From the IMG/VR virus record IMGVR_UViG_3300044618_001856, positions 1 through 25,521 of that record: a DNA stretch of 25,521 nucleotides. One strand, written 5' to 3'. The translations under genes and the position numbers were made by a program. This document shows, one piece after another, positions 1-12,904 of this stretch (positions within the stretch are counted from its first letter, which is position 1; the number at the start of each line of letters is the position of its first letter). This stretch comes from a virus. The notes under the pieces were generated by a model. The model ran no database searches, was not told the origin of the DNA, and worked only from the letters and a program-made list of their open reading frames with translations.

Positions 1-3000
1 TCCACTAGATCCACTTTCGCCACTTGTACCACTAGTTCCACTAGATCCACTTATTCCACTACTTCCACTAGATCCACTACTTCCACTTGTACCACTAGAT
101 CCGCTTGTACCACTTGTACCATTAGATCCACTAGATCCGCTTGTATCACTAGATCCACTAGTTCCGTTTGTACCACTAGATCCGCTTGTACCACTAGATC
201 CACTAGTTCCACTTGTACCACTAGATCCGCTTGTACCACTTGTACCATTAGATCCACTAGTTCCGTTGGTACCGCTACTTCCACTTGTACCACTAGATCC
301 ACTAGATCCACTAGATCCACTTTCGCCACTTGTACCACTAGTTCCACTAGATCCGCTGGTACCACTAGATCCGCTGGTACCACTAGATCCGCTGGTACCA
401 CTAGATCCGCTGGTACCACTAGATCCACTTGATCCACTTGATCCACTACTTCCGCTGGTACCACTACTTCCACTTGATCCACTAGATCCACTAGATCCAC
501 TAGATCCACTTTCGCCACTTGTACCACTAGTTCCACTAGATCCACTTAAACCACTACTTCCACTTGTTCCACTTGTTCCACTACTTCCACTTGTACCACT
601 ACTACCACTAGATCCACTTGTACCATTTGTACCACTTGTACCACTTGTACCATTAGATCCACTAGATCCGCTTGTACCACTAGATCCACTAGTTCCGCTT
701 GTACCACTAGATCCGCTTGTACCACTAGATCCACTGGTTCCGCTTGTACCACTAGATCCGCTTGTACCACTAGATCCACTAGTTCCACTTGTACCACTAG
801 TTCCGCTTGTACCACTAGATCCACTTTTGCCACTTGTACCACTTGATCCACTACTTCCACTTGTACCACTACTTCCACTAGTTCCACTGGTTCCACTAGA
901 TCCGCTTGTACCACTAGATCCACTAGATCCGCTTGTACCACTAGATCCACTAGATCCGCTTGTACCACTAGATCCACTAGTTCCACTGGTACCACTAGAT
1001 CCGCTGGTACCACTAGATCCGCTTGTACCACTAGATCCACTGGTTCCGCTTGTACCACTGGATCCACTTTCGCCACTTGTACCATTTGTACCACTAGTTC
1101 CACTAGATCCACTTAAACCACTACTTCCACTTGTTCCACTTGTTCCACTTGTTCCACTTGTTCCACTTGTTCCACTTGTTCCACTAGATCCGCTTGTACC
1201 ACTAGATCCACTTGTTCCACTTGTACCATTAGATCCACTAGTTCCGCTTGTACCACTACTTCCACTAGTTCCGTTTGTACCACTAGATCCGCTTGTACCA
1301 CTAGATCCACTAGTTCCGCTTGTACCACTAGATCCATTGGATCCACTTGTACCACTAGATCCACTTTCGCCACTTGTACCATTTGTACCACTAGTTCCAC
1401 TAGATCCACTTAAACCACTTGTACCACTTGTACCACTACTACCACTAGATCCACTTGTACCACTAGATCCACTAGATCCGCTTGTACCACTTGTACCACT
1501 AGATCCACTAGATCCACTTGTACCACTAGATCCACTAGATCCGCTTGTACCACTTGTACCACTAGATCCGCTTGTACCACTAGATCCGCTTGTACCACTA
1601 CTTCCACTAGATCCGCTTGTACCACTTGTACCACTAGTTCCACTTGTACCACTGGATCCACTTTCACCACTTGATCCACTTGTACCACTAGTTCCGCTAG
1701 ATCCACTTGTACCACTACTTCCACTTGTACCACTACTTCCACTTGTACCACTACTTCCACTTGTACCACTTGTACCACTAGATCCATTAGATCCGCTAGA
1801 TCCGCTAGATCCACTAGATCCACTAGTTCCACTAGTTCCACTAGATCCACTTGTACCACTTGTGCCACTAGATCCACTTGTACCACTAGATCCGCTTGTA
1901 CCACTGGATCCGCTTGTACCACTAGATCCACTTTCACCACTTAATCCGCTGGTTCCGCTAGACCCACTTAAACCACTAGATCCGCTGGATCCAGTTGTAC
2001 CACTTGATCCACTTGATCCAGTTGTACCACTTGTACCGCTAGATCCACTACTTCCATTAGTACCACTTGATCCGCTAGATCCACTTGTACCACTGGATCC
2101 GCTAGATCCACTACTTCCGCTAGATCCACTTGTACCACTTGTACCACTAGTTCCGCTAGATCCACTTGTACCACTTGTACCACTTGTACCACTAGTTCCG
2201 CTAGATCCACTTGTTCCGCTTGTACCACTAGATCCGCTTGTATCACTAGATCCGCTTGTACCACTAGATCCGCTTGTACCACTAGATCCGCTTGTACCAC
2301 TAGATCCGCTTGTACCACTAGATCCGCTTGTACCACTACTTCCACTTAAACCACTTGTACCACTTGATCCGCTAGATCCACTTGTACCACTTGATCCGCT
2401 AGATCCACTTGATCCACTTGATCCACTTGTACCACTTGTACCACTTGTACCACTTGTACCACTTGATCCACTTGATCCACTTGTACCACTTTCACCACTT
2501 GTACCACTTGTACCACTTGTACCACTTGATCCACTTGTACCACTTGATCCACTTGTACCACTTGATCCACTTGTACCACTTGATCCACTTGATCCGCTAG
2601 TTCCACTGGATCCACTTGATCCGCTAGTTCCACTGGATCCACTTGATCCGCTGGTTCCACTGGATCCACTTGTACCACTTGTACCACTAGATCCACTGGT
2701 TCCACTTGATCCACTAGTTCCGCTAGATCCGCTGGTACCACTAGTACCACTTTCACCACTAGTACCACTTTCACCACTAGTACCACTTTCACCACTAGAT
2801 CCACTTTCGCCACTAGATCCACTTTCACCACTAGTACCACTTTCACCACTAGTACCGCTAGATCCACTACTTCCGTTAGTACCACTTGATCCACTAGATC
2901 CACTTGATTCGCTAGATCCACTTGTACCACTAGTTCCGCTAGATCCACTAGATCCACTACTACCACTAGATCCACTGGATCCACTACTTCCGCTGGTACC

Positions 3001-3600
3001 ACTTTCACCACTACTTCCACTTGTTCCACTTGTACCACTAGATCCACTAGATCCACTACTTCCGCTGGTTCCACTTGATCCACTACTTCCACTAGTTCCA
3101 CTGGTTCCACTGGTTCCACTACTTCCACTAGTTCCACTGGTTCCACTACTTCCACTACTTCCACTAGTTCCACTGGTTCCACTAGATCCGCTTGTACCAC
3201 TAGATCCACTAGATCCACTAGATCCACTGGTTCCACTTGATCCGCTAGTACCACTAGATCCGCTTGTACCACTAGTTCCACTTTCGCCACTTGTACCACT
3301 TGTACCACTTGTACCACTAGATCCGCTAGATCCACTACTACCACTACTTCCACTTGTACCACTGGATCCACTTGTACCACTAGATCCACTAGTTCCATTT
3401 GTACCACTTGTTCCGTTAGTTCCGTTAGTTCCGCTCGTTCCGCTAAATCCACTCGTTCCGCTAGTACCACTTGATCCAGATGAACCTTTTTCACCACTAC
3501 TACCACTAGTAGCACTAGTACCACTTAATGCGCTTTCGCCACTAGTTCCGCTAGTACCGCTTGTTCCGCTTGTTCCGCTTGTTCCGTTAGATCCACTTTG
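1..3600 (-). repeat. 9-bp-phased tandem repeat array coding for Gly-X-Ser triplets
   Basis: About 3.6 kb is built from variants of 9-bp units that read, on the minus strand, GGT ACA AGT or GGA TCT AGT (Gly-Thr-Ser, Gly-Ser-Ser). Longer blocks recur. One encodes a Gly-Leu-Ser to Gly-Glu-Ser stretch with nearly identical bases around 511-550, 1069-1120 and 1366-1415, and a shorter version occurs near 17-50 and 321-355. Codons vary (GGT/GGA/GGC, ACA/ACT/ACC, AGT/AGC) while the reading phase is kept. This points to expansion by recombination under coding selection. Such arrays are prone to assembly collapse, so the true length may differ. Confidence 0.95.
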
Positions 3601-4032
3601 ACCGCTACTACCACTTGTGCCTGTGCCAGATATACCACTTGTACTTACATTACTACCTATAGCAAAAACATAACCACATGCAGGAAATGAGAATTTTATT
3701 GTGGCTGTGTTTTTATTGTTTAAAGTTATGCTTTCAGGTATTATTTGATTTAAATCTTGATCATATACAATGAACAATACAAATTCCGAATTTAAATTAT
3801 GATTATATACCCATGTATCTGTTTTTGAATCACATGGAAATTCTTGTATAGACTGTGTATTTTTTTGTAAATTGGCATTACAATTAATAATAACACGTAA
3901 TTCTTCGATTATTTTAAGAAACAGTGGTGTAGTAGGATCTTTAAAAGTCGCTGTTAATTTTTTGTAGTCATACAAAGCATTGTCCAATTTTAATGGAGAA
4001 ACTTCACATGGATCTTTCTTCAATGTTGACAT
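1..4032 (-). CDS. Giant collagen-like (Gly-X-Ser) repeat protein, probable tail fibre or virion surface fibre; 3' end beyond window
   Basis: From ATG at 4032 the minus strand is open in one frame to position 1, giving at least 1344 codons with no stop seen. Residues 1 to about 137 are a non-repetitive domain starting MSTLKKDPCEV, with Cys and aromatic residues. From about residue 140 the protein becomes Gly-X-Y triplets in which Y is nearly always Ser and X is Thr or Ser, with occasional Glu, Leu, Asn, Phe or Gln; I see no Pro in the repeats. Glycine is replaced at a few points: Asp at 145-147 and 2242-2244, Glu at 2908-2910, Ala at 3511-3513 and 3529-3531. Collagen-like triplets are known in phage fibres, and the gene follows probable neck/tail-completion genes, so a fibre role is inferred. 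The N-terminal domain would then be the virion attachment part. The C-terminal end, which might carry a receptor-binding tip, lies outside the window. A TATTTATT motif sits 4 nt before the ATG. Confidence 0.85.
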   Translation of the reverse strand, partial: MSTLKKDPCEVSPLKLDNALYDYKKLTATFKDPTTPLFLKIIEELRVIINCNANLQKNTQSIQEFPCDSKTDTWVYNHNLNSEFVLFIVYDQDLNQIIPESITLNNKNTATIKFSFPACGYVFAIGSNVSTSGISGTGTSGSSGQSGSNGTSGTSGTSGTSGTSGESALSGTSATSGSSGEKGSSGSSGTSGTSGFSGTSGTNGTNGTSGTNGTSGSSGTSGSSGTSGSSGSSGSSGSSGTSGTSGTSGESGTSGTSGSSGTSGSSGTSGSSGSSGSSGTSGSSGTSGTSGSSGSSGTSGTSGSSGTSGTSGTSGSSGSSGTSGSSGSSGSSGTSGTSGSSGESGTSGSSGSSGSSGSSGSSGSSGTSGTSGSSESSGSSGSSGTNGSSGSSGTSGESGTSGESGSSGESGSSGESGTSGESGTSGESGTSGTSGSSGTSGSSGTSGSSGTSGTSGSSGTSGSSGSSGTSGSSGSSGTSGSSGSSGTSGSSGTSGSSGTSGSSGTSGTSGTSGESGTSGSSGSSGTSGTSGTSGTSGSSGSSGSSGSSGTSGSSGSSGTSGLSGSSGTSGSSGTSGSSGTSGSSGTSGSSGTSGSSDTSGSSGTSGTSGSSGTSGTSGTSGTSGSSGTSGTSGTSGSSGSSGSSGSSGTSGSSGSSGTNGSSGSSGTSGTTGSSGSSGTTGSSGSSGLSGSSGTSGLSGESGSSGTSGSSGTSGSSGTSGSSGTSGTSGSSGTSGTSGSSGSSGSSGSNGSSGTSGTSGSSGTSGSSGTSGSSGTSGSSGTSGTSGSSGESGSSGTSGTSGTSGTSGSSGSSGTSGSSGTSGSSGTSGTSGSSGSSGTSGSSGSSGTSGTSGSSGSSGTSGSSGSSGTSGTSGLSGSSGTSGTNGTSGESGSSGTSGSNGSSGTSGTSGSSGTSGSSGTNGTSGSSGTSGTSGSNGTSGTSGSSGTSGSSGTSGTSGTSGTSGTSGTSGSSGLSGSSGTSGTNGTSGESGSSGTSGTSGSSGTSGSSGTSGSSGTSGTSGSSGTSGSSGSSGTSGSSGSSGTSGSSGTSGTSGSSGTSGSSGSSGTSGKSGSSGTSGTSGTSGTSGSSGTSGSSGTSGTSGSSGTSGSSGTSGTSGSSGTSGSSGSNGTSGTSGTNGTSGSSGSSGTSGSSGTSGTSGSSGLSGSSGTSGTSGESGSSGSSGSSGSSGSSGTSGSSGSSGSSGSSGTSGSSGTSGSSGTSGSSGTSGSSGTSGTSGESGSSGSSGSSGTSGSSGTNGTSGSNGTSGTSGSSGTSGTSGSSGTSGSSGTNGTSGSSDTSGSSGSNGTSGTSGSSGTSGSSGSSGSSGISGSSGTSGTSGESGSSG

Positions 4033-6070: not shown

Positions 6071-7294
6071 TTATCCTATATAAATATGTAAAGGTACACG
6101 GGACAACATCTTATTCATTTCTTCACTTTCTTTTCCTTTATTTTCTAATTGATTAACACGAAGTGTCTTTTCCAACATATCTCTTAGTTTTTCAAGCAAT
6201 GAATCTTTTTCTTCTTTGGCTTCGGATCGTAATTCAGCGCCATCAAGAGTTACTTCTCCACCAGGAATTGGTACTGTACTATATTTTTGAAGAATCCGAC
6301 CCAATGTTTCCTTACACAACGCTAAGAAATATTTTTTAATCCACTGTTTACCAGGCTGATTAATTTTACAATATGTGCAGTATTCGTATGGAATATCACT
6401 GGGGTCACTAATATATTCATAACGAGATCCACTATAAAAGTTGGTAATATCACGTTCACTTTCAACGATGTAATCTATATATACCTTGAAATTTTCAGAT
6501 GGTATTGGAAATATTCTCAACTTGTTATTACCTAAAATTTCAAAACTATAAGCGCTTTTACGAACCATATCATTGAATTCAATGGCCTGTACACGTTCCA
6601 AATCTTCAAAAATAGGAGTCATCAAGAATTGTGTAGCAGGACTATAAGCCCCAAATCCCATTTCACCGAGTACGTTACTGTAACTCATTCCTGTCATACT
6701 AAATGGATCGTATATACGAGCAATTGCTGGGGGTCTATTATGAAATATTCTTTTTACTTCAATTCGTGACCCAGTTAAATGTTCAATGTCTCGACCAATT
6801 AAGGTATTCAAGTCATAAACCTGATGTGTTTTGCCAGGGTTGATACTACCACTAATAGTTACATAGTTACGCTTAACTTCATATTCACCGCCAACAAGTG
6901 CTTCGGCTCCATATTGTTTGCTCAGTTGAACTATAAAAGGTAAACCAGTACTCTTTACGCCCATCCCCGTTAAATTTTTATATTTATTTTGAGGCAATCC
7001 CTGTAAATCAACCATGTTGTTAACAATATTAAATTCATTAACTACACGGTTATATTCTAGTACAGATTCTTCAAAACATGCGTAGAAATTAACGTCGATC
7101 ATTTCAATATCAACGATTGGATACCCCAACCGTTTTGCTGCCCACATCGCACTGCTACTACAATCATTTGCAAATGTGGTTTCAGCTCCAACGCAACTTT
7201 CGTTTAGATAATAGCCAAATGGCACAGTGTTTATATTAACACTACTACCACTCCCGGGCCATCTTACCCTATCTTGGTCCAAATTAGCACTCAT
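6071..7294 (-). CDS. Probable neck / head-tail connector protein, gp13-like
   Basis: The protein has 407 aa. A block near residues 48-90 reads AAKRLGYPIVDIEMIDVNFY followed by ACFEESVLEYNRVV. This resembles the N-terminal helical part of phage connector and gp13-like neck proteins, which bind under the portal. The middle part is rich in Tyr, Asn and Gly. The C-terminal third contains a segment CTYCKINQPGKQWIKKYFLA and then a long charged helix (about residues 345-395). T4 gp13 has 309 aa, so this version is larger. It opens the 13-14-15-like cluster and follows the GP88-like gene. The start at 7294 is supported by the TATTTATA-ATCA-ATG arrangement. Its role in head completion is inferred from position and partial resemblance. 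Confidence 0.5.
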   Translation of the reverse strand: MSANLDQDRVRWPGSGSSVNINTVPFGYYLNESCVGAETTFANDCSSSAMWAAKRLGYPIVDIEMIDVNFYACFEESVLEYNRVVNEFNIVNNMVDLQGLPQNKYKNLTGMGVKSTGLPFIVQLSKQYGAEALVGGEYEVKRNYVTISGSINPGKTHQVYDLNTLIGRDIEHLTGSRIEVKRIFHNRPPAIARIYDPFSMTGMSYSNVLGEMGFGAYSPATQFLMTPIFEDLERVQAIEFNDMVRKSAYSFEILGNNKLRIFPIPSENFKVYIDYIVESERDITNFYSGSRYEYISDPSDIPYEYCTYCKINQPGKQWIKKYFLALCKETLGRILQKYSTVPIPGGEVTLDGAELRSEAKEEKDSLLEKLRDMLEKTLRVNQLENKGKESEEMNKMLSRVPLHIYIG

Positions 7295-7298
7295 TGAT

Positions 7299-7306
7299 TA
7301 TAAATA
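7299..7306 (-). promoter_or_regulatory. TATTTATA motif 4 nt upstream of the gp13-like gene
   Basis: On the minus strand it reads TATTTATA-ATCA-ATG in the 39-nt gap after the GP88-like gene. There is no SD-like sequence between motif and start, so promoter/leaderless initiation or an AU-rich translation signal are both possible. Confidence 0.5.
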
Positions 7307-7333
7307 TCTCTGGAGTGAGATAATACAACTAAA

Positions 7334-8563
7334 TTAGTGGATTAATAACCAAGTACCCACTACATCTGCTCTATTTGCACTATCGTCGCCGTCACCTGGT
7401 TTAACTATAACATTCCACTTTGGTTTATCTCCCACAGGAATTTTCATCATTTCATCGTAGGTAATGACACTGTCTTCAGAAACATTATACTTTAATGCTA
7501 ACTTTTTCTTTAAAATATCAATAGCGGATGGGGATTTATAAACCAACTTTTTAATTGTTTTATTTGGCTTATCTGGATCTGGTACTTCTTCTCTATCAAC
7601 TAAATCAGCAAACATTTGCTTTGGTACTACAGTTGAATGTTTAGTTGTTTTAAAATCGACTTGTTTTTCTTGATCAGGTTTTGCACCCGCACTAAAATTC
7701 ATCTTGAAATTGACTGGTTTATCACCTTTAGCCACATCTGCCATTTTAGTATAAGCATAAAAGTCTACGTTGGGAAATGTTTTTGCAACACTATATGCTA
7801 GGTTTACATAATCAGGACTAAAGAAATCGCCTGAATCATGCCATCTAATCACAGTTTTTACATTTTTCTTTGAATTTTTTTCAACTGCTGCACGAATTTC
7901 GTTTGATAACATATTTTTATAACCATCCGGATCGTTCAACAAAAAGTTAAGTTGTCTTGTTTGCGATGTGTTAACTGGTACATATTGTACATAACCGCCT
8001 TTTTTAGCATAACAATAAACTTTGCATGCACCTGCGCCTGGACACGTATTTATGATAACAAATTTTTGATTCTTTTCGTCATAACCAAGTCCTTGTAAAG
8101 CTGGCAATCCTATATTATAAAACTGAGTACTTTCACCGCCACTGTGTGAAATTTTTTCATTTTGTTTTAAAATCTTATCAGGACGTGTGGTGATATGGGT
8201 TTTTAGTTTGTTTAAATCAAACCTACGGCCACTTGGATCTACAATTTGTATCTCTCTGGCAAGCTTTGGATGTACATATGGATACTTGAATTTATCAGTT
8301 GGATCTTTTGTAGTAGTATACTTTTGTTTACCTTTTTTATCCAATTTAGGCAATCCAGTTTTCTTATAAACTGCAGGTTGACCGGCCGATCTGTCTAAAT
8401 ATCCTTGTAATTCATCGGATGGCAATTCTGTGGTGCCAGCGCCTAACATATCAGCTTCGTCTAATTCTTGTGCAACAAATGAATCTAATGACTGTACAGC
8501 CGATGCTGGTAATCCTAGACTTTCATACATTTTAACTTCGGTTAGCAAATCGATTAATTTCAT
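7334..8563 (-). CDS. GP88-like cysteine-motif protein with possible capsid-targeting leader
   Basis: I chose the ATG at 8563 (409 aa) over an in-frame TTG at 8590, because MKLIDLLTEV is a typical N-terminus for this kind of phage protein. The core is a cysteine motif CPGAGACKVYCYA at about residues 174-186, then an arginine/asparagine-rich helix. Next come RWHDSGDFFSPDY at about 240-252 and FPNVDFYAYTK. This order (Cys cluster, R-x-H-x-SGDF, Y-T-K) matches the GP88 family first named in mycobacteriophages, whose function is not established; the Cys triad could hold a metal or Fe-S cluster. The leader contains L-T-E followed by V, an LxE site suited to a gp21-type prohead protease, so the protein may be packaged in the head. 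A TTG start at 8590 with an AAGG upstream cannot be excluded. Confidence 0.65.
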   Translation of the reverse strand: MKLIDLLTEVKMYESLGLPASAVQSLDSFVAQELDEADMLGAGTTELPSDELQGYLDRSAGQPAVYKKTGLPKLDKKGKQKYTTTKDPTDKFKYPYVHPKLAREIQIVDPSGRRFDLNKLKTHITTRPDKILKQNEKISHSGGESTQFYNIGLPALQGLGYDEKNQKFVIINTCPGAGACKVYCYAKKGGYVQYVPVNTSQTRQLNFLLNDPDGYKNMLSNEIRAAVEKNSKKNVKTVIRWHDSGDFFSPDYVNLAYSVAKTFPNVDFYAYTKMADVAKGDKPVNFKMNFSAGAKPDQEKQVDFKTTKHSTVVPKQMFADLVDREEVPDPDKPNKTIKKLVYKSPSAIDILKKKLALKYNVSEDSVITYDEMMKIPVGDKPKWNVIVKPGDGDDSANRADVVGTWLLIH

Positions 8564-8631: not shown

Positions 8632-8639
8632 TATAAATA
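8632..8639. promoter_or_regulatory. TATAAATA/TATTTATA element in the divergent intergenic region
   Basis: The plus strand reads TATAAATA about 35 nt before the plus-strand ATG at 8674, identical to the T4 late-promoter core. The minus strand reads TATTTATA about 68 nt before the GP88-like ATG. It could serve either direction; orientation cannot be decided by eye. Confidence 0.4.
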
Positions 8640-8673: not shown

Positions 8674-9639
8674 ATGAACTTTAAAAAGCAACTGTTTTAT
8701 ACTATTGTAATTTTGATATTAACTGGATGTATTTCATCAGAGGTTAAATCAGCAAAGCAAGTTAGTGTGGCACAAGATGCCGTTGCAAAACAAGAAGCCA
8801 AAGTAGACAATACAATGGTAGAATTGGAAAAAGTAGAAAAAGGTAAAATAGTACAAACTTCTTCTTTATCAATTGGTATTCAACATTCGTTAAGTCAAGT
8901 AACTAATGCGCCTATACAAGTAGAAACAGCTAAATCTTTGAATGAACGAGTAATTTCTATCGTTGGTTCTCCACACATAGATGAAATTAAAAGAATTAAA
9001 GCTACAGTTGATCTGCTTAATTCTCAAGTAGCTGAAGAACGAAAAAAAGGTGATCAATTATTATCACAACGGGACGAAATCATAAACAAATTACAAAAAG
9101 AAAAGTCTGCTTTAAAAGAAAAGTATGATGATGAACTTTGGCAAATGACTGATAAAGCAAAAGAAATTGCAAAAGAAGCAGATCAAAGCAAGGCTACACT
9201 TGATACAATGAGTGGTATGTTTGGATTAAATGCTGTATTTTGGGGTTTAAAAAAGTTCTTTATTAGTGCTTTAACCGCAATTATCATATTTGTTGTAGTA
9301 TTCGTTATACTTAGAATATTAGCAACAGTACATCCAGCAGCTGGTGCAGTATTTAGTATATTCAATATGATCGGATCCGGACTATTAAGTTTGGTAAAAG
9401 TATTAACTCCACATGCATTTGAAATATCTAACTTTGCTTCAAAAGACAAAGTTGATGAATATAAGTCCCCACTTACTAAGATAGTTGATGTAATTCAAGA
9501 ACTCAAAGAAAAGCAAAAAGAATCTCCTGACAGAGTATATCCATTGACCGAAGTGTTAAAGAGATTTGACAAAGAAATGGACAACTCTGAAAAAGATTTG
9601 ATTGATGATATCTTGAAAGAACAAAAGTGGACGAAGTGA
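8674..9639 (+). CDS. Lipoprotein with periplasmic coiled coil and internal membrane segment (unimolecular-spanin-like topology)
   Basis: The protein has 321 aa. Residues 1-19 form a lipoprotein signal peptide: two Lys, a hydrophobic stretch, then the lipobox LTGC with Cys at 19. Residues about 25-175 are charged and helical, with a likely coiled coil at about 102-175. A strong transmembrane segment lies at about 196-217, with a second hydrophobic or amphipathic stretch at about 223-244. A charged tail of about 75 residues follows. A lipid anchor at one end and a membrane segment further on is the layout of unimolecular spanins, which bridge outer and inner membrane at lysis. Here there is also a large C-terminal domain, which spanins lack. 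The gene is first in a plus-strand group with an MscS-like protein and a nucleotide cyclase, so an envelope-sensing or superinfection-exclusion role is equally possible. I do not recognise the family. Confidence 0.7.
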   Translation: MNFKKQLFYTIVILILTGCISSEVKSAKQVSVAQDAVAKQEAKVDNTMVELEKVEKGKIVQTSSLSIGIQHSLSQVTNAPIQVETAKSLNERVISIVGSPHIDEIKRIKATVDLLNSQVAEERKKGDQLLSQRDEIINKLQKEKSALKEKYDDELWQMTDKAKEIAKEADQSKATLDTMSGMFGLNAVFWGLKKFFISALTAIIIFVVVFVILRILATVHPAAGAVFSIFNMIGSGLLSLVKVLTPHAFEISNFASKDKVDEYKSPLTKIVDVIQELKEKQKESPDRVYPLTEVLKRFDKEMDNSEKDLIDDILKEQKWTK

Positions 9640-9708: not shown

Positions 9709-10098
9709 ATGGACACAAATACTGTACAAGTAATTTCAGAAAAAGTATTAGAATCAACAGCGCAAGATATGACAGGCAAATATGTCTGGATGTTCTTAGC
9801 CGGTTTAGTAATTCTAATATTCAAATCAAGCATTGAAAAGTTAGCAGCTGCGCTTTTTATGTTTATTGGATCCGATTATAAAGAAGATGACGTTGTATAT
9901 GTTGATGGTAAACCAGGAAGAATTGTACGTGTAGGTTTAACCAAAACGGTATTCTTTATATATGATGTAGTAGATGGTAAGGTTGTAGGTGGCAGTAAAT
10001 TAGTTATTCAAAATGAAAGATTGGCCGGTCTAAATATAGAAAAACCACTACCTCAGTTGGATTTGGCTCGTTTCAAAAAAGAAAACAAACAAGACTAA
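9709..10098 (+). CDS. Small MscS-like membrane protein (one TM plus beta domain)
   Basis: The protein has 129 aa. A hydrophobic segment at about 25-40 is followed by an amphipathic helix at about 42-53 ending in Gly-Ser. A beta-rich part follows: DDVVYVDGKPGRIVRVGL, then KTVFFIYD, then KLVIQNERLAGL. This order resembles the pore helix and middle beta domain of MscS-type channels (EDxVxVDGxxGxVxxI, then T-aromatic, then a PN-like QN motif). Full MscS proteins have about 280 aa and more TM helices, so this is a minimal version that would need to assemble as an oligomer. It sits 7 nt before the ankyrin-cyclase gene, so the two are probably co-transcribed. Channel activity is not shown by the sequence; it could be a scaffold or exclusion protein. 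Confidence 0.55.
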   Translation: MDTNTVQVISEKVLESTAQDMTGKYVWMFLAGLVILIFKSSIEKLAAALFMFIGSDYKEDDVVYVDGKPGRIVRVGLTKTVFFIYDVVDGKVVGGSKLVIQNERLAGLNIEKPLPQLDLARFKKENKQD

Positions 10099-10105
10099 TT
10101 TACTT

Positions 10106-11884
10106 ATGGCAATCAATATTTTTACCCACATTAAACGAGGGTTGTATGATAACGTATACAATTGCATCGAAAAAGAAAAAATAGACGTTAATCAGAGAGA
10201 TGACGATACCGGCAATCCACCATTGGTTGTTGCAGTAGAAGAAAATCAAATAGAAATAGTCAAATTGTTATTAAATCGTGGCGCCGATGTAAATGTAAAA
10301 GATTGGACAAGCAAAAATACTGCATTAGATATATCTGAACAAAAAGGGTTTAAACACATTTCAGAATTATTGCAAGGTCGAGGTGCAAAATATAGTAGTG
10401 GTAGCAGTTTTCATTTGGCTGCTAAGAATGGTGATATTGTTTCTATTGAAGAAATGTTGAGTAAAAAACAAGATATCAATGAAGTTGACGCTGGTAAAGG
10501 TTGGACAGCACTACACTATGCGGTTAATTATGGACAAAAACATTTGGTTGAATATTTAATTGTTAAAGGTGCTGATGTCAACAAGAAAGATTTCTTAGGT
10601 AAAAACAATCCAATAGATGTGTTATCCAATGTTAATAGAGGTGAAATTGTTAAGTTGTTAAATAAAAATGGCGCTAAATCTGCTGGTGGTGTTAATATTC
10701 ATTTTTGTGCTGAAACCGGTGATTTTGAAGGTGTACAGTCATTTTTTGATAAAGACGGTAAAATTAATGGTAGAGATGAAAAGAATGGATGGATGCCATT
10801 ACATTACGCCGTTAATGCTAACGATGTTGATATGACGGAGTTTTTGGTACATTTGGGTGCAAATGTTAATGGTGCAGATTTTAAGGGAGAAATTGCTCCG
10901 TTAGACATTGCATTCAAGACAGGCAATGTAGAAATGCAAAGTTATTTACAAGCCAAAGGTGCTTTAAGAAAGAAGAAACACGATACGGGTGGTAATGGTA
11001 AAGATGTAAACATTTATATTACAGATGAAGTTAAGAAACAAATTGCGTTATTCATTGAAAAACGCAATCGTGAAGAAGAAGCAATAAAGAAACTAGAAGC
11101 AGAACAGACTGCAAAAGAACCAAAAAAGAAAGATGCACCAACAAAAAAGATTAACTGGAAAGACTTTTTAAAATTAAAGAATATGCCGGTTGTAGAAAAG
11201 AAAGAAGAACAACCAAAGGTTGAAGTACCAAAACCAGTTAAACAAATAGTTCGTAAAGTTGACAAGATCGACGTGGAAGTCAAATCAGGACGATTACAAT
11301 TAGATACTGAACAAGAAGGTTTCATATTCTTTATGGATATTGTGGCTTACAGTAAAAAAACCACAGATGAACAAAAGAAGGCTTGTAAAGACTTGGGTAC
11401 ACTAGTTAAATCTACAATGCAATATAAAACAGCTAATGCTCTTGAAAAGTTGATTATATTACCCACCGGAGATGGTATGGTAATGGGATTTTTCACGTAT
11501 CTAGAAGATGCAATGAATTGTGCCGTTGCTATAGCTAAAGCAGTAAAAGATAGACCCGACTTACAAATGAGAATGGGTGTACACTGTGGACCTGTAATTC
11601 CAATGGAAGATATCAATGGAAATCTTAATATAAGCGGTGATGGAATCAATTATGCTCAAAGAGTAATGGATGCGGGTGAAACAAATCATTTATTAGTTAG
11701 TTCAGCTGTAATGTTGAAATATGATAGACCAGCATACGTTTTGGTAAATGATTTGGGGGATGTAATTGTAAAACACGGTGTAATAATGCATTTGTACAGT
11801 TTACACGGTACCGAGTTTGGTAACAAAGAATTTCCATCAAGTAGAGTAAAAAAAGCAGAACCAACAACAAATAAACCATTATGA
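10106..11884 (+). CDS. Ankyrin-repeat / class III nucleotide cyclase fusion
   Basis: The protein has 592 aa. Residues 1-290 hold ankyrin repeats arranged as three modules of about 95 residues (about 1-95, 101-192, 198-287); each contains clear units such as GWTALHYAVNYGQKHLVEYL and ends in a Gly-Ala turn. Residues about 305-400 are a charged, Lys/Pro-rich linker with a probable helix. Residues about 405-580 are a class III cyclase domain: metal-binding D411 in FFMDIVAYSK, D456 in LPTGDGMVMGF (45 residues apart, as in the family), and transition-state N515 and R519 in GINYAQRVMD. The C-terminal DLGDVIVKHGV also fits bacterial cyclases of the LPTGDGM type. The usual purine-selecting Lys and Asp positions are L452 and N508, so the base used is uncertain. 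No membrane segment is seen; it is likely cytoplasmic. Ankyrins suggest control by a protein partner. There is no SD; the gene follows the MscS-like gene by 7 nt. Confidence 0.85.
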   Translation: MAINIFTHIKRGLYDNVYNCIEKEKIDVNQRDDDTGNPPLVVAVEENQIEIVKLLLNRGADVNVKDWTSKNTALDISEQKGFKHISELLQGRGAKYSSGSSFHLAAKNGDIVSIEEMLSKKQDINEVDAGKGWTALHYAVNYGQKHLVEYLIVKGADVNKKDFLGKNNPIDVLSNVNRGEIVKLLNKNGAKSAGGVNIHFCAETGDFEGVQSFFDKDGKINGRDEKNGWMPLHYAVNANDVDMTEFLVHLGANVNGADFKGEIAPLDIAFKTGNVEMQSYLQAKGALRKKKHDTGGNGKDVNIYITDEVKKQIALFIEKRNREEEAIKKLEAEQTAKEPKKKDAPTKKINWKDFLKLKNMPVVEKKEEQPKVEVPKPVKQIVRKVDKIDVEVKSGRLQLDTEQEGFIFFMDIVAYSKKTTDEQKKACKDLGTLVKSTMQYKTANALEKLIILPTGDGMVMGFFTYLEDAMNCAVAIAKAVKDRPDLQMRMGVHCGPVIPMEDINGNLNISGDGINYAQRVMDAGETNHLLVSSAVMLKYDRPAYVLVNDLGDVIVKHGVIMHLYSLHGTEFGNKEFPSSRVKKAEPTTNKPL

Positions 11885-12093
11885 AAATGATACCTTTGGG
11901 AAGACAATATCACGCAAGTGTTGTTAATACAGATTTGGATGTATATAAAATAAAAGATAAAGTAATGGGTGTACGTACAAGTAATCATCCAGGTCCATTT
12001 CAAATTTCAGATAAACTCGGTATCATTAAAGATAACGATACCAAGATCAGAATTGTAGTTTATAATTCAAAAGGCTTGTTTTATTTAATATAA
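11881..12093 (+). CDS. Small hypothetical protein coupled to the cyclase gene
   Basis: The protein has 70 aa and begins MKMIPLGRQYHASV. Its ATG overlaps the cyclase stop in an ATGA arrangement (start 11881, cyclase stop 11882-11884), which argues for translational coupling and that the gene is real. It is basic at the N-terminus and contains HPGPFQISDKLG and a beta-like end IRIVVYNSKGLFYLI. It has no signal peptide, membrane helix or cysteine motif. I recognise no family. The tight coupling suggests a partner or regulator of the cyclase, but that is inference from position. Confidence 0.6.
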   Translation: MKMIPLGRQYHASVVNTDLDVYKIKDKVMGVRTSNHPGPFQISDKLGIIKDNDTKIRIVVYNSKGLFYLI

Positions 12094-12130: not shown

Positions 12131-12904
12131 ATGTCCGAATATTGTGATACCTCATTGCTTTATCTCAAAAGTATCAATAAGAATGTTGCAAAAACTCTTA
12201 TTGAAAAAAACCATTATACACACAAATGGTCTCTTTGTACTGTAGCTTATGGAGTTTATTATAAAGAGTATATTGAAAGCACATTCTTTGGTGGTTTTAA
12301 CGAACGCCTAATAGGTGTATTAGTATATGGAAATGCCGTGGGTAGAAATGCAAGTACCAGCATATGTCCTCTACTTACTAATAACAATGTGTTGGAATTA
12401 ACACGACTGTGGATTGCAGATGGTTATGGTAAAAATATAGAAAGCTATTGTATAGCTGAAAGTTTTAGATTATTAAACACAGATTATCCACAAATAAAAT
12501 GTATTCTTAGTTACGCGGATAGTGAAGCTGGTCACGTTGGAACAATATATCAAGCAACTGGATTTGTATATCAAGGTGATAACTATGTGGATATTGCACT
12601 GATGCCTAACTATAGTGTTAGTTTAATTGGCCCCACTGAATATGATTGGATACATAGTAGAAGTGTATATGCACGTTGGAAAACACACAGTGTAGATAAA
12701 CTAAAAGAACGTATTGGTAGAACATTTTGGCGCAAACGTGAAAGCGGTAAACATCGTTATATCAAGTTTATAAGCAACAAGATAGAAAATAAGAAACTGG
12801 TTAAATCTCTTAAACATAAAGTTCTACCTTATCCCAAAGATACTTCGTTCAAAGAAGAAGTGCAAGAAATCGTTGTAGAAAATACCAACGAATTTTTCGA
12901 TTAG
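12131..12904 (+). CDS. Mom-like DNA adenine modification enzyme (GNAT-type fold)
   Basis: The protein has 257 aa. Its motif order fits the Mom-like family of phage proteins: KNHYTHKW with H28 near the N-terminus, GVLVYGNAVGRN at about 62-73, ELTRLWIADG at about 89-98, ESYCIAESFRLL, and the signature SYADSEAGHVGTIYQATGFVYQG at about 127-149 (a Ser-Tyr-Ala-Asp then Gly-His block). Mu Mom converts adenine in DNA to N6-carbamoylmethyladenine and protects phage DNA from host restriction. About 110 residues after the signature are basic (Lys/Arg-rich) and could contact DNA. The gene has its own consensus promoter and ends at a strong terminator, so it can be expressed apart from the cyclase group. 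The exact modification and target sequence cannot be read from the gene. Confidence 0.75.
   Translation: MSEYCDTSLLYLKSINKNVAKTLIEKNHYTHKWSLCTVAYGVYYKEYIESTFFGGFNERLIGVLVYGNAVGRNASTSICPLLTNNNVLELTRLWIADGYGKNIESYCIAESFRLLNTDYPQIKCILSYADSEAGHVGTIYQATGFVYQGDNYVDIALMPNYSVSLIGPTEYDWIHSRSVYARWKTHSVDKLKERIGRTFWRKRESGKHRYIKFISNKIENKKLVKSLKHKVLPYPKDTSFKEEVQEIVVENTNEFFD

Follow-up and report, generated by a model that had tools for sequence, protein, structure and literature searches.

The stretch of DNA analysed here (the window: all 25,521 bases of virus record IMGVR_UViG_3300044618_001856) carries a gene, F0, in which ankyrin repeats are followed by a linker and then by a class III nucleotide-cyclase domain. 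On the same strand and directly upstream, with 7 bp between its stop and the F0 start, lies F1, whose small product resembles part of the channel protein MscS; F2 precedes the pair and F3 follows it, and together we refer to these genes as the cassette (Table 1). The first-pass annotation of this DNA had described the cyclase gene itself, and that description stands, but it overlooked both the MscS-like neighbour and the conserved cassette to which the cyclase belongs.

The fusion of ankyrin repeats to a cyclase, already noticed in the first-pass annotation, is borne out by three Ank_2 stretches in Pfam, and the Guanylate_cyc family (PF00211) matches F0 at 23.4 bits, against a curated cut-off of 21.9. 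The two metal-binding aspartates and the transition-state asparagine and arginine expected of a class III cyclase are present as first described, and in an alignment of 31 homologues (30 from phages and one from a metagenome-assembled genome, MAG) Asp411, Leu452, Asp456, Asn508, Asn515, Arg519 and Lys556 are invariant in all 31. The last of these aligns with the lysine of the VKGKG motif in 5o5k, a residue which we take to bind the triphosphate. What F0 does not have is the Lys/Asp pair by which canonical adenylyl-type cyclases select the base: these positions are held by Leu452 and Asn508, an assignment originally made by hand that is upheld by the profile columns and by alignments to 3mr7 and Ma1120. 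The search for ankyrin-cyclase relatives in viral contigs that had been proposed earlier returned 67 related viral loci in one scan. In one contig, the same one that carries L054, F0 is split into two open reading frames (ORFs) of 122 and 429 residues (L305, ~6396-7984).

An AlphaFold2 model of the cyclase domain, built from the 31 homologues, has a mean predicted local distance difference test score (pLDDT) of 91.8 and, as modelled, places the domain firmly within the cyclase fold. Its best Foldseek match is Rv1900c (E 6.5e-11, 22% identity), and VIA-align puts Rv1264, Rv1900c, Ma1120 and eukaryotic guanylate cyclases at Z ~19, the top ten matches all being tied with root-mean-square deviations of 2.3-2.6 over 156-167 residues, so that the superposition on mycobacterial cyclases suggested in the first-pass annotation came out in its favour. 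No entry titled PycC is among the 50 VIA-align matches listed, which excludes nothing. With cyclases of the Rv1900c, Rv1264 and Ma1120 type F0 shares the fold, the pair of metal aspartates and the transition-state arginine, and Rv1900c (LipJ) is also non-canonical at the lysine position, where it carries Asn in the alignment to solved cyclases; F0 differs from this type in its Leu/Asn base pair, its ankyrin fusion, its being encoded by a phage and the MscS-like gene alongside it.

It could be argued that such a domain, with two base-selecting residues changed and only ~22% identity to the best solved cyclase, is a non-catalytic relative that serves as a nucleotide binder, scaffold or sponge, the ankyrin repeats doing the work. 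We regard this as distinctly unlikely, given that none of the residues of the metal, transition-state and triphosphate-type sites varies among the 31 sequences, and that all six comparisons (of eight made) in which both could be computed give the cyclase part a lower ratio of nonsynonymous to synonymous change (dN/dS) than the ankyrin part. The pairwise dN/dS values that could be computed were 0.02-0.08 for both of these parts, synonymous change being saturated for the cyclase part of L062 and for the MAG copy, and the linker was looser at 0.06-0.23. Because the invariant catalytic set is under strong purifying selection, the best reading of the domain is that it is probably a catalytically competent cyclase.

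Table 1. Features of the cassette in the window, followed by genes of related loci; positions refer to the window unless a locus is named.
Feature	Position	Strand	Evidence or remark
F0, ankyrin-class III cyclase	10106..11884	+	ATG start, 592 aa, no internal stop
Ankyrin-repeat region, ~aa 1-290	10106..10975	+	Pfam Ank_2, three stretches, 5.7e-34
Class III cyclase domain, ~aa 406-570	11321..11815	+	PF00211; structure model; Foldseek; VIA-align
Asp411, metal ligand 1	11336..11338	+	alignments, invariant 31/31
Leu452, at purine-selecting Lys position	11459..11461	+	alignments
Asp456, metal ligand 2	11471..11473	+	alignments
Asn508, at purine-selecting Asp position	11627..11629	+	alignments
Asn515, transition-state Asn	11648..11650	+	alignments
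Arg519, transition-state Arg	11660..11662	+	alignments
Lys556, aligned with Lys of VKGKG in 5o5k	11771..11773	+	alignment, invariant 31/31
F1, 129-aa MscS-like mini protein (one long helix and MscS beta-domain)	9709..10098	+	family profile, fold searches
F2, 321-aa putative lipoprotein, hydrophobic segment ~aa 190-215	8674..9639	+	lipoprotein and segment both by eye
F3, 70-aa protein	11881..12093	+	start overlaps F0 stop
TATAAATA, T4-type late-promoter-like element	8632..8639	+	starts 42 bp upstream of F2
Second cyclase	L302:1844-3283	+	
Second cyclase	L299:7038-8486	+	
Second cyclase, 479-aa ORF in L039			after F0
256-259 aa protein	L012:7000-7770; L302:3290-4066; L299:8488-9264		after cyclases; HD-hydrolase-like motifs by eye

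The assignment of F1 as MscS-like draws mainly on its family profile. Matches to the MscS beta-domain family PF00924 at E up to 1 come from 11 of the 13 family members, the best being 6.1e-7, and all 14 matches of the F1 profile in the PDB at E up to 1 are to MscS or to a YnaI-MscS chimera, the best at 0.0017 and covering approximately MscS residues 107-170; Foldseek, given the F1 model, ranked MscS first (2.4e-4). As a family profile F1 thus appears to correspond to the third transmembrane helix (TM3) plus the beta-domain of MscS, the member from the window taken alone falling below the Pfam cut-off, but with only 129 residues it has neither the TM1-TM2 sensor helices nor the C-terminal alpha/beta cage. 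This reduced form could also be that of a subunit which joins host channels, in which case F1 would be a dominant modifier of host MscS and the cyclase would report or control its timing. The resemblance to TM3 and the beta-domain only, and the many other phage contigs in which F1 stands without a detected F0, would fit such a role, yet co-assembly of F1 with host channels is purely putative and we consider this explanation very unlikely. The F1 family is apparently more widespread in viral contigs than the cyclase, with 279 matches in one scan, and it often occurs without a detected cyclase (L320-L332, L390-L468); in L320 it adjoins a gene for a B12-type ribonucleotide reductase.

The pairing of F1 with F0 is conserved in the close phage family to which the window belongs. 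In this family, clade I, there are 68 loci including the window, 63 of them with at least 450 bp of upstream sequence, and F1 lies directly upstream of F0 on the same strand in 61 of the 63. In the other two, L052 and L065, F1 is ~0.9 kb upstream with two small putative membrane genes between. These spacer genes were observed in L317 and L316, which come from the same contigs; in L317 they occupy 6374-6994 and 6996-7322 (+), and the second is weakly like YLATT (0.0056, below cut-off). F2 is found upstream of F0 in 56 of 58 loci and F3 adjacent after it in 54 of 62; F2 has no Pfam match above cut-off and F3 none. Since the clade I loci are closely related and hence not independent, more weight falls on L012 and L039, which keep the F1-F0 pair even though their other listed neighbours, apart from F3 in L012, differ from those of the window.

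A second kind of pairing is found in L299 and L302, where the gene after the same F1 encodes a protein of 213-215 residues (outer-membrane-like by eye) and the next one a different class III cyclase of 479-482 residues, with membrane segments predicted by eye, KFIGD and TVTGD motifs, and PF00211 matches at 6.6e-27 and 5.8e-26; the L039 record carries F1, F0 and this second cyclase. The protein of 256-259 residues that follows the cyclases in L012, L302 and L299 may be a phosphodiesterase; its HD-hydrolase-like motifs are a resemblance by eye, PF01966 gave 0.061 in one of three members, and neither a significant family match nor a useful PDB match was obtained. When the loci are instead counted by F1, 55 of 78 have a recognised F0 as the very next gene (80 were listed, two with earlier ids being left out). 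The remaining 23 comprise three that end right after F1, three in which the contig stops after the ankyrin end of F0, one with the split F0, two with the spacer genes, two with the other cyclase, and 12 without F0 in the stretch at hand.

That this is phage DNA is clear from its surroundings. Around the cyclase Pfam identifies T4-like genes for the gp23 capsid protein, the gp20 portal, a T4-type terminase, an S77 prohead protease, a gp15-type tail-sheath stabiliser and Mom, and the contig is that of a T4-like phage, the nearest isolates by capsid and terminase being Microcystis phage Mel-JY01 and Flavobacterium phages of the immuto group at ~50-58% identity. Misassembly of host sequence into a phage contig, a concern raised in the first-pass annotation, can be rejected: the cyclase lies among T4-like structural genes here and beside them in several related contigs, and it recurs across viral contigs with many different sample numbers. 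The Mom-type DNA-modification protein (12131-12904, +; PF25680, 1.8e-44) is encoded just 3' of the cassette. Elsewhere in the window, a collagen-like ORF of at least 1344 residues (1-4032, -; Collagen, E 9e-164) lies within the strongest GC-skew stretch.

An ankyrin-cyclase of the same architecture as F0 also occurs in a bacterial genome, the Verrucomicrobiales MAG SYEM01 (L202/L233; contig of 65% GC), with 68% identity to F0 over 588 residues; among 50 genomes of that family, no other matched at E up to 1e-20. In a tree of full-length proteins the MAG copy nests within phage clade I (support 96/90), and in the approximately unbiased (AU) test a phage-only clade was not rejected (p 0.087). The sequences make a transfer between phage and the SYEM01 lineage likely, and we assign it no direction.

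Verrucomicrobiota genomes were searched more widely with the phage profile, the best-scoring loci alone being fetched and examined; at E up to 1e-3, 47 of the 293 genomes from the order had a match, ordinary cyclases included, and at E up to 1e-20 so did 4 of the 387 from the phylum. Forty-six bacterial sequences were aligned through one profile, duplicate fetches (L234-L237 and L254) having been dropped. At the columns of residues 452 and 508, 25 of the 46 have Lys/Asp and two have Leu/Ala, and 19 have Leu, Ile or Phe together with Asn: the MAG ankyrin-cyclase and 18 non-ankyrin chromosomal cyclases of Verrucomicrobiota, 13 of which have exactly Leu/Asn. Fifteen of these 18 are long proteins whose C-terminal part is TolB/TPR-like by eye, and Pfam agrees on the TPR-type part for the two that were run, L238 and L243. 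The TolB/TPR cyclases (L238-L253 except L240) share with F0 the hydrophobic residue at 452, the Asn at 508 and, for the most part, the VKHG motif, but have the cyclase first and the TPR-type repeats after it, and two genomes have at least seven copies each. Seventeen of the 18 group together in the tree as sister to the phage-type clade, which includes the MAG copy (support 100/97 for the clade and 94/90 for the join; some branches are long, which leaves the outer order unsure).

The hydrophobic/Asn pocket is a trait of a subfamily that includes chromosomal cyclases, not an invention of the phage; it is therefore not phage-specific and by itself no sign of Pycsar. Nor is the choice of base readable from Leu452 and Asn508, and we know of no assayed product for this subfamily, to which both F0 and the chromosomal TPR-cyclases belong.

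Pycsar systems, in which PycC is paired with PycTM or PycTIR, resemble the locus in layout, a class III cyclase next to a membrane protein. It is tempting to see in F0 and F1 a weapon of this sort, directed at other phages or at host cells, with a pyrimidine cyclase product that triggers F1 as a small membrane effector, and the non-canonical base pocket had been read as a pointer in that direction. For the cyclic CMP (cCMP)-making EaPycC, the available part of the source reports F100, R142 and Q144 together with metal aspartates 102 and 146 (PMC11224242), and against this one enzyme, the only PycC compared, F0 matches at one position of three: the Phe two residues ahead of the first metal Asp is there, and Leu and Thr stand where EaPycC has Arg and Gln. 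The shared Phe also occurs in Lys/Asp-type cyclases and so says little. PADLOC holds PycC models, and its matches to F0, where located, fall within the ankyrin part.

As to the adjacent effector with a cyclic-nucleotide-binding domain that would be expected of Pycsar, Pfam reports no nucleotide-binding domain in F1, F2 or F3, and the cyclic-nucleotide-binding family PF00027 is above cut-off in none of 30 phage records, mostly fragments. Three weak PF00027 matches lie below cut-off among these records, and two of them were rejected since by their coordinates they fall in F28 genes, which encode a cupin (Cupin_2 at 2.6e-8 for that of L052). With two of the three reported EaPycC residues mismatched, no receptor domain found and the same kind of pocket present in 18 chromosomal cyclases, many of them TPR-fused, membership of F0 in Pycsar is not supported and the weapon appears improbable. 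What survives of the first-pass interpretation is that a true phage encodes a probably competent cyclase whose base pair is non-canonical; the link that it drew from the pocket to Pycsar chemistry is not supported.

The sequence upstream offers some indication of when the cassette might be expressed. An element, TATAAATA, which we take to be the core of the T4 late promoter, precedes F2 and is enriched in the contig, with 11 sites against 3.9 expected and none of 100 shuffles reaching 11. Late expression of the cassette is a suggestion only, because the motif is conserved in few distinct upstream sequences. Hairpin-plus-T-run-like sequences were seen by eye just before the cassette in L012, L039, L052 and L062, as if the cassette were its own transcription unit.

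Taken together, we tentatively favour, at a probability of about 45%, the view that F0 and F1 form a phage membrane-linked second-messenger cassette that is catalytically competent and perhaps expressed late. The adjacency of the two genes suggests that these phages bring their own signalling-and-membrane kit into the cell, and we infer a role for F1 as the membrane partner because the cassette is conserved and because a different cyclase can stand behind the same F1. In this scheme the cassette would be made late in infection and the F0 cyclase would dimerise and convert a nucleoside triphosphate to a 3',5'-cyclic nucleotide, with the ankyrin repeats as a protein-sensing or anchoring part that might hold or switch the cyclase through a partner, perhaps F1, F2 or a host protein. 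Because no cyclic-nucleotide-binding domain is above cut-off in the 30 records, F1 would have to answer the cyclase by contact or through an unrecognised site, or else the nucleotide would act on a host receptor. What results would be an altered inner membrane, or altered cyclic-nucleotide signalling in the host, to the advantage of the resident phage, which might for instance keep the cell intact until lysis or shut out competitors.

Several observations weigh against a membrane-linked cassette of this kind. The catalytic activity of F0 is inferred, and the missing nucleotide-binding domains just described count here as well. For F1, the window's own protein scores 14.3 bits with PF00924 (E 0.044) where the cut-off is 20.2, its model has low confidence (pLDDT 63), and in VIA-align the MscS-type channels, at Z ~6-8.5, overlap with unrelated rows such as myosin X at 7.3. 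Of 58 loci, 21 have the exact TATAAATA close to where the cassette begins, as compared with 5.7% of random windows of this contig, and among 22 distinct upstream sequences it occurs in eight and at the same place in four. In the bacterial contig the gene order is a cytidylyltransferase (kdsB-like), ligA and then the ankyrin-cyclase by Pfam labels, not F1, and a search of the SYEM01 MAG, run without a positive control, gave no F1 match. Finally, in the distant clade II, whose records are mostly fragments, F1 is present in 5 of 10 records with F0 and F0 in 4 of 20 records with F1, and F0 was found within up to 6 kb on either side in 14 of 79 F1 loci (79 of the 80 listed). A strict dependence of F1 and F0 on each other is rejected for clade II, where the genes are often apart or only one is found.

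The last two of these lines of evidence are what would be expected if F0 were an auxiliary gene for host signalling, its cyclic AMP or cyclic GMP steering host regulators, and F1 a mere neighbour: the same ankyrin-cyclase stands after ligA without F1 in the bacterial contig, and in clade II the two genes frequently lie far from each other, or a record has just one of them. Yet in clade I the adjacency of F1 and F0 is kept even where other neighbours differ, and F1 precedes a different cyclase too, so that we find this explanation unlikely.

A class III cyclase in a phage is by itself no novelty, since BFVD contains two proteins from uncultured Caudovirales phages, A0A6J5RWB7 and A0A6J5KRX6, whose folds match the cyclase model; the former is named for a transmembrane sensor and the latter for a guanylate cyclase domain, and neither for an ankyrin fusion. 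A tblastn search of 50,697 phage records with the cyclase domains of the window and of clade II and with F1 gave zero matches, and 35 plasmid records match, at ~28-33% identity among the 30 matches listed. Among the open-licence PubMed Central papers listed, preprints being outside this scope, we found no description of a phage ankyrin-cyclase or of a phage cyclase-MscS pair.

It is an intriguing thought that the cassette might be a self-contained circuit: the cyclase, unusual in its base specificity and controlled by the ankyrin repeats, would make a cyclic nucleotide that directly gates or assembles F1 as a minimal MscS-derived pore, late in infection, for control of the inner membrane or exclusion of rivals. 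We see this as a long shot. If true, it would give phages their own equivalent of the cyclic-nucleotide immunity of bacteria, one that acts through an effector of a new kind. With the MscS-like gene as a defined target, the question reduces to two small genes. The product of the phage domain would also inform the hydrophobic/Asn subfamily of chromosomal TPR-cyclases. As far as we know, work on cyclic nucleotides in phage biology has dealt chiefly with immune signals of the host, which phages degrade or sequester (PMC9117128); if a conserved phage enzyme that makes them is encoded next to a channel-like membrane protein, phages would be senders of such signals as well.

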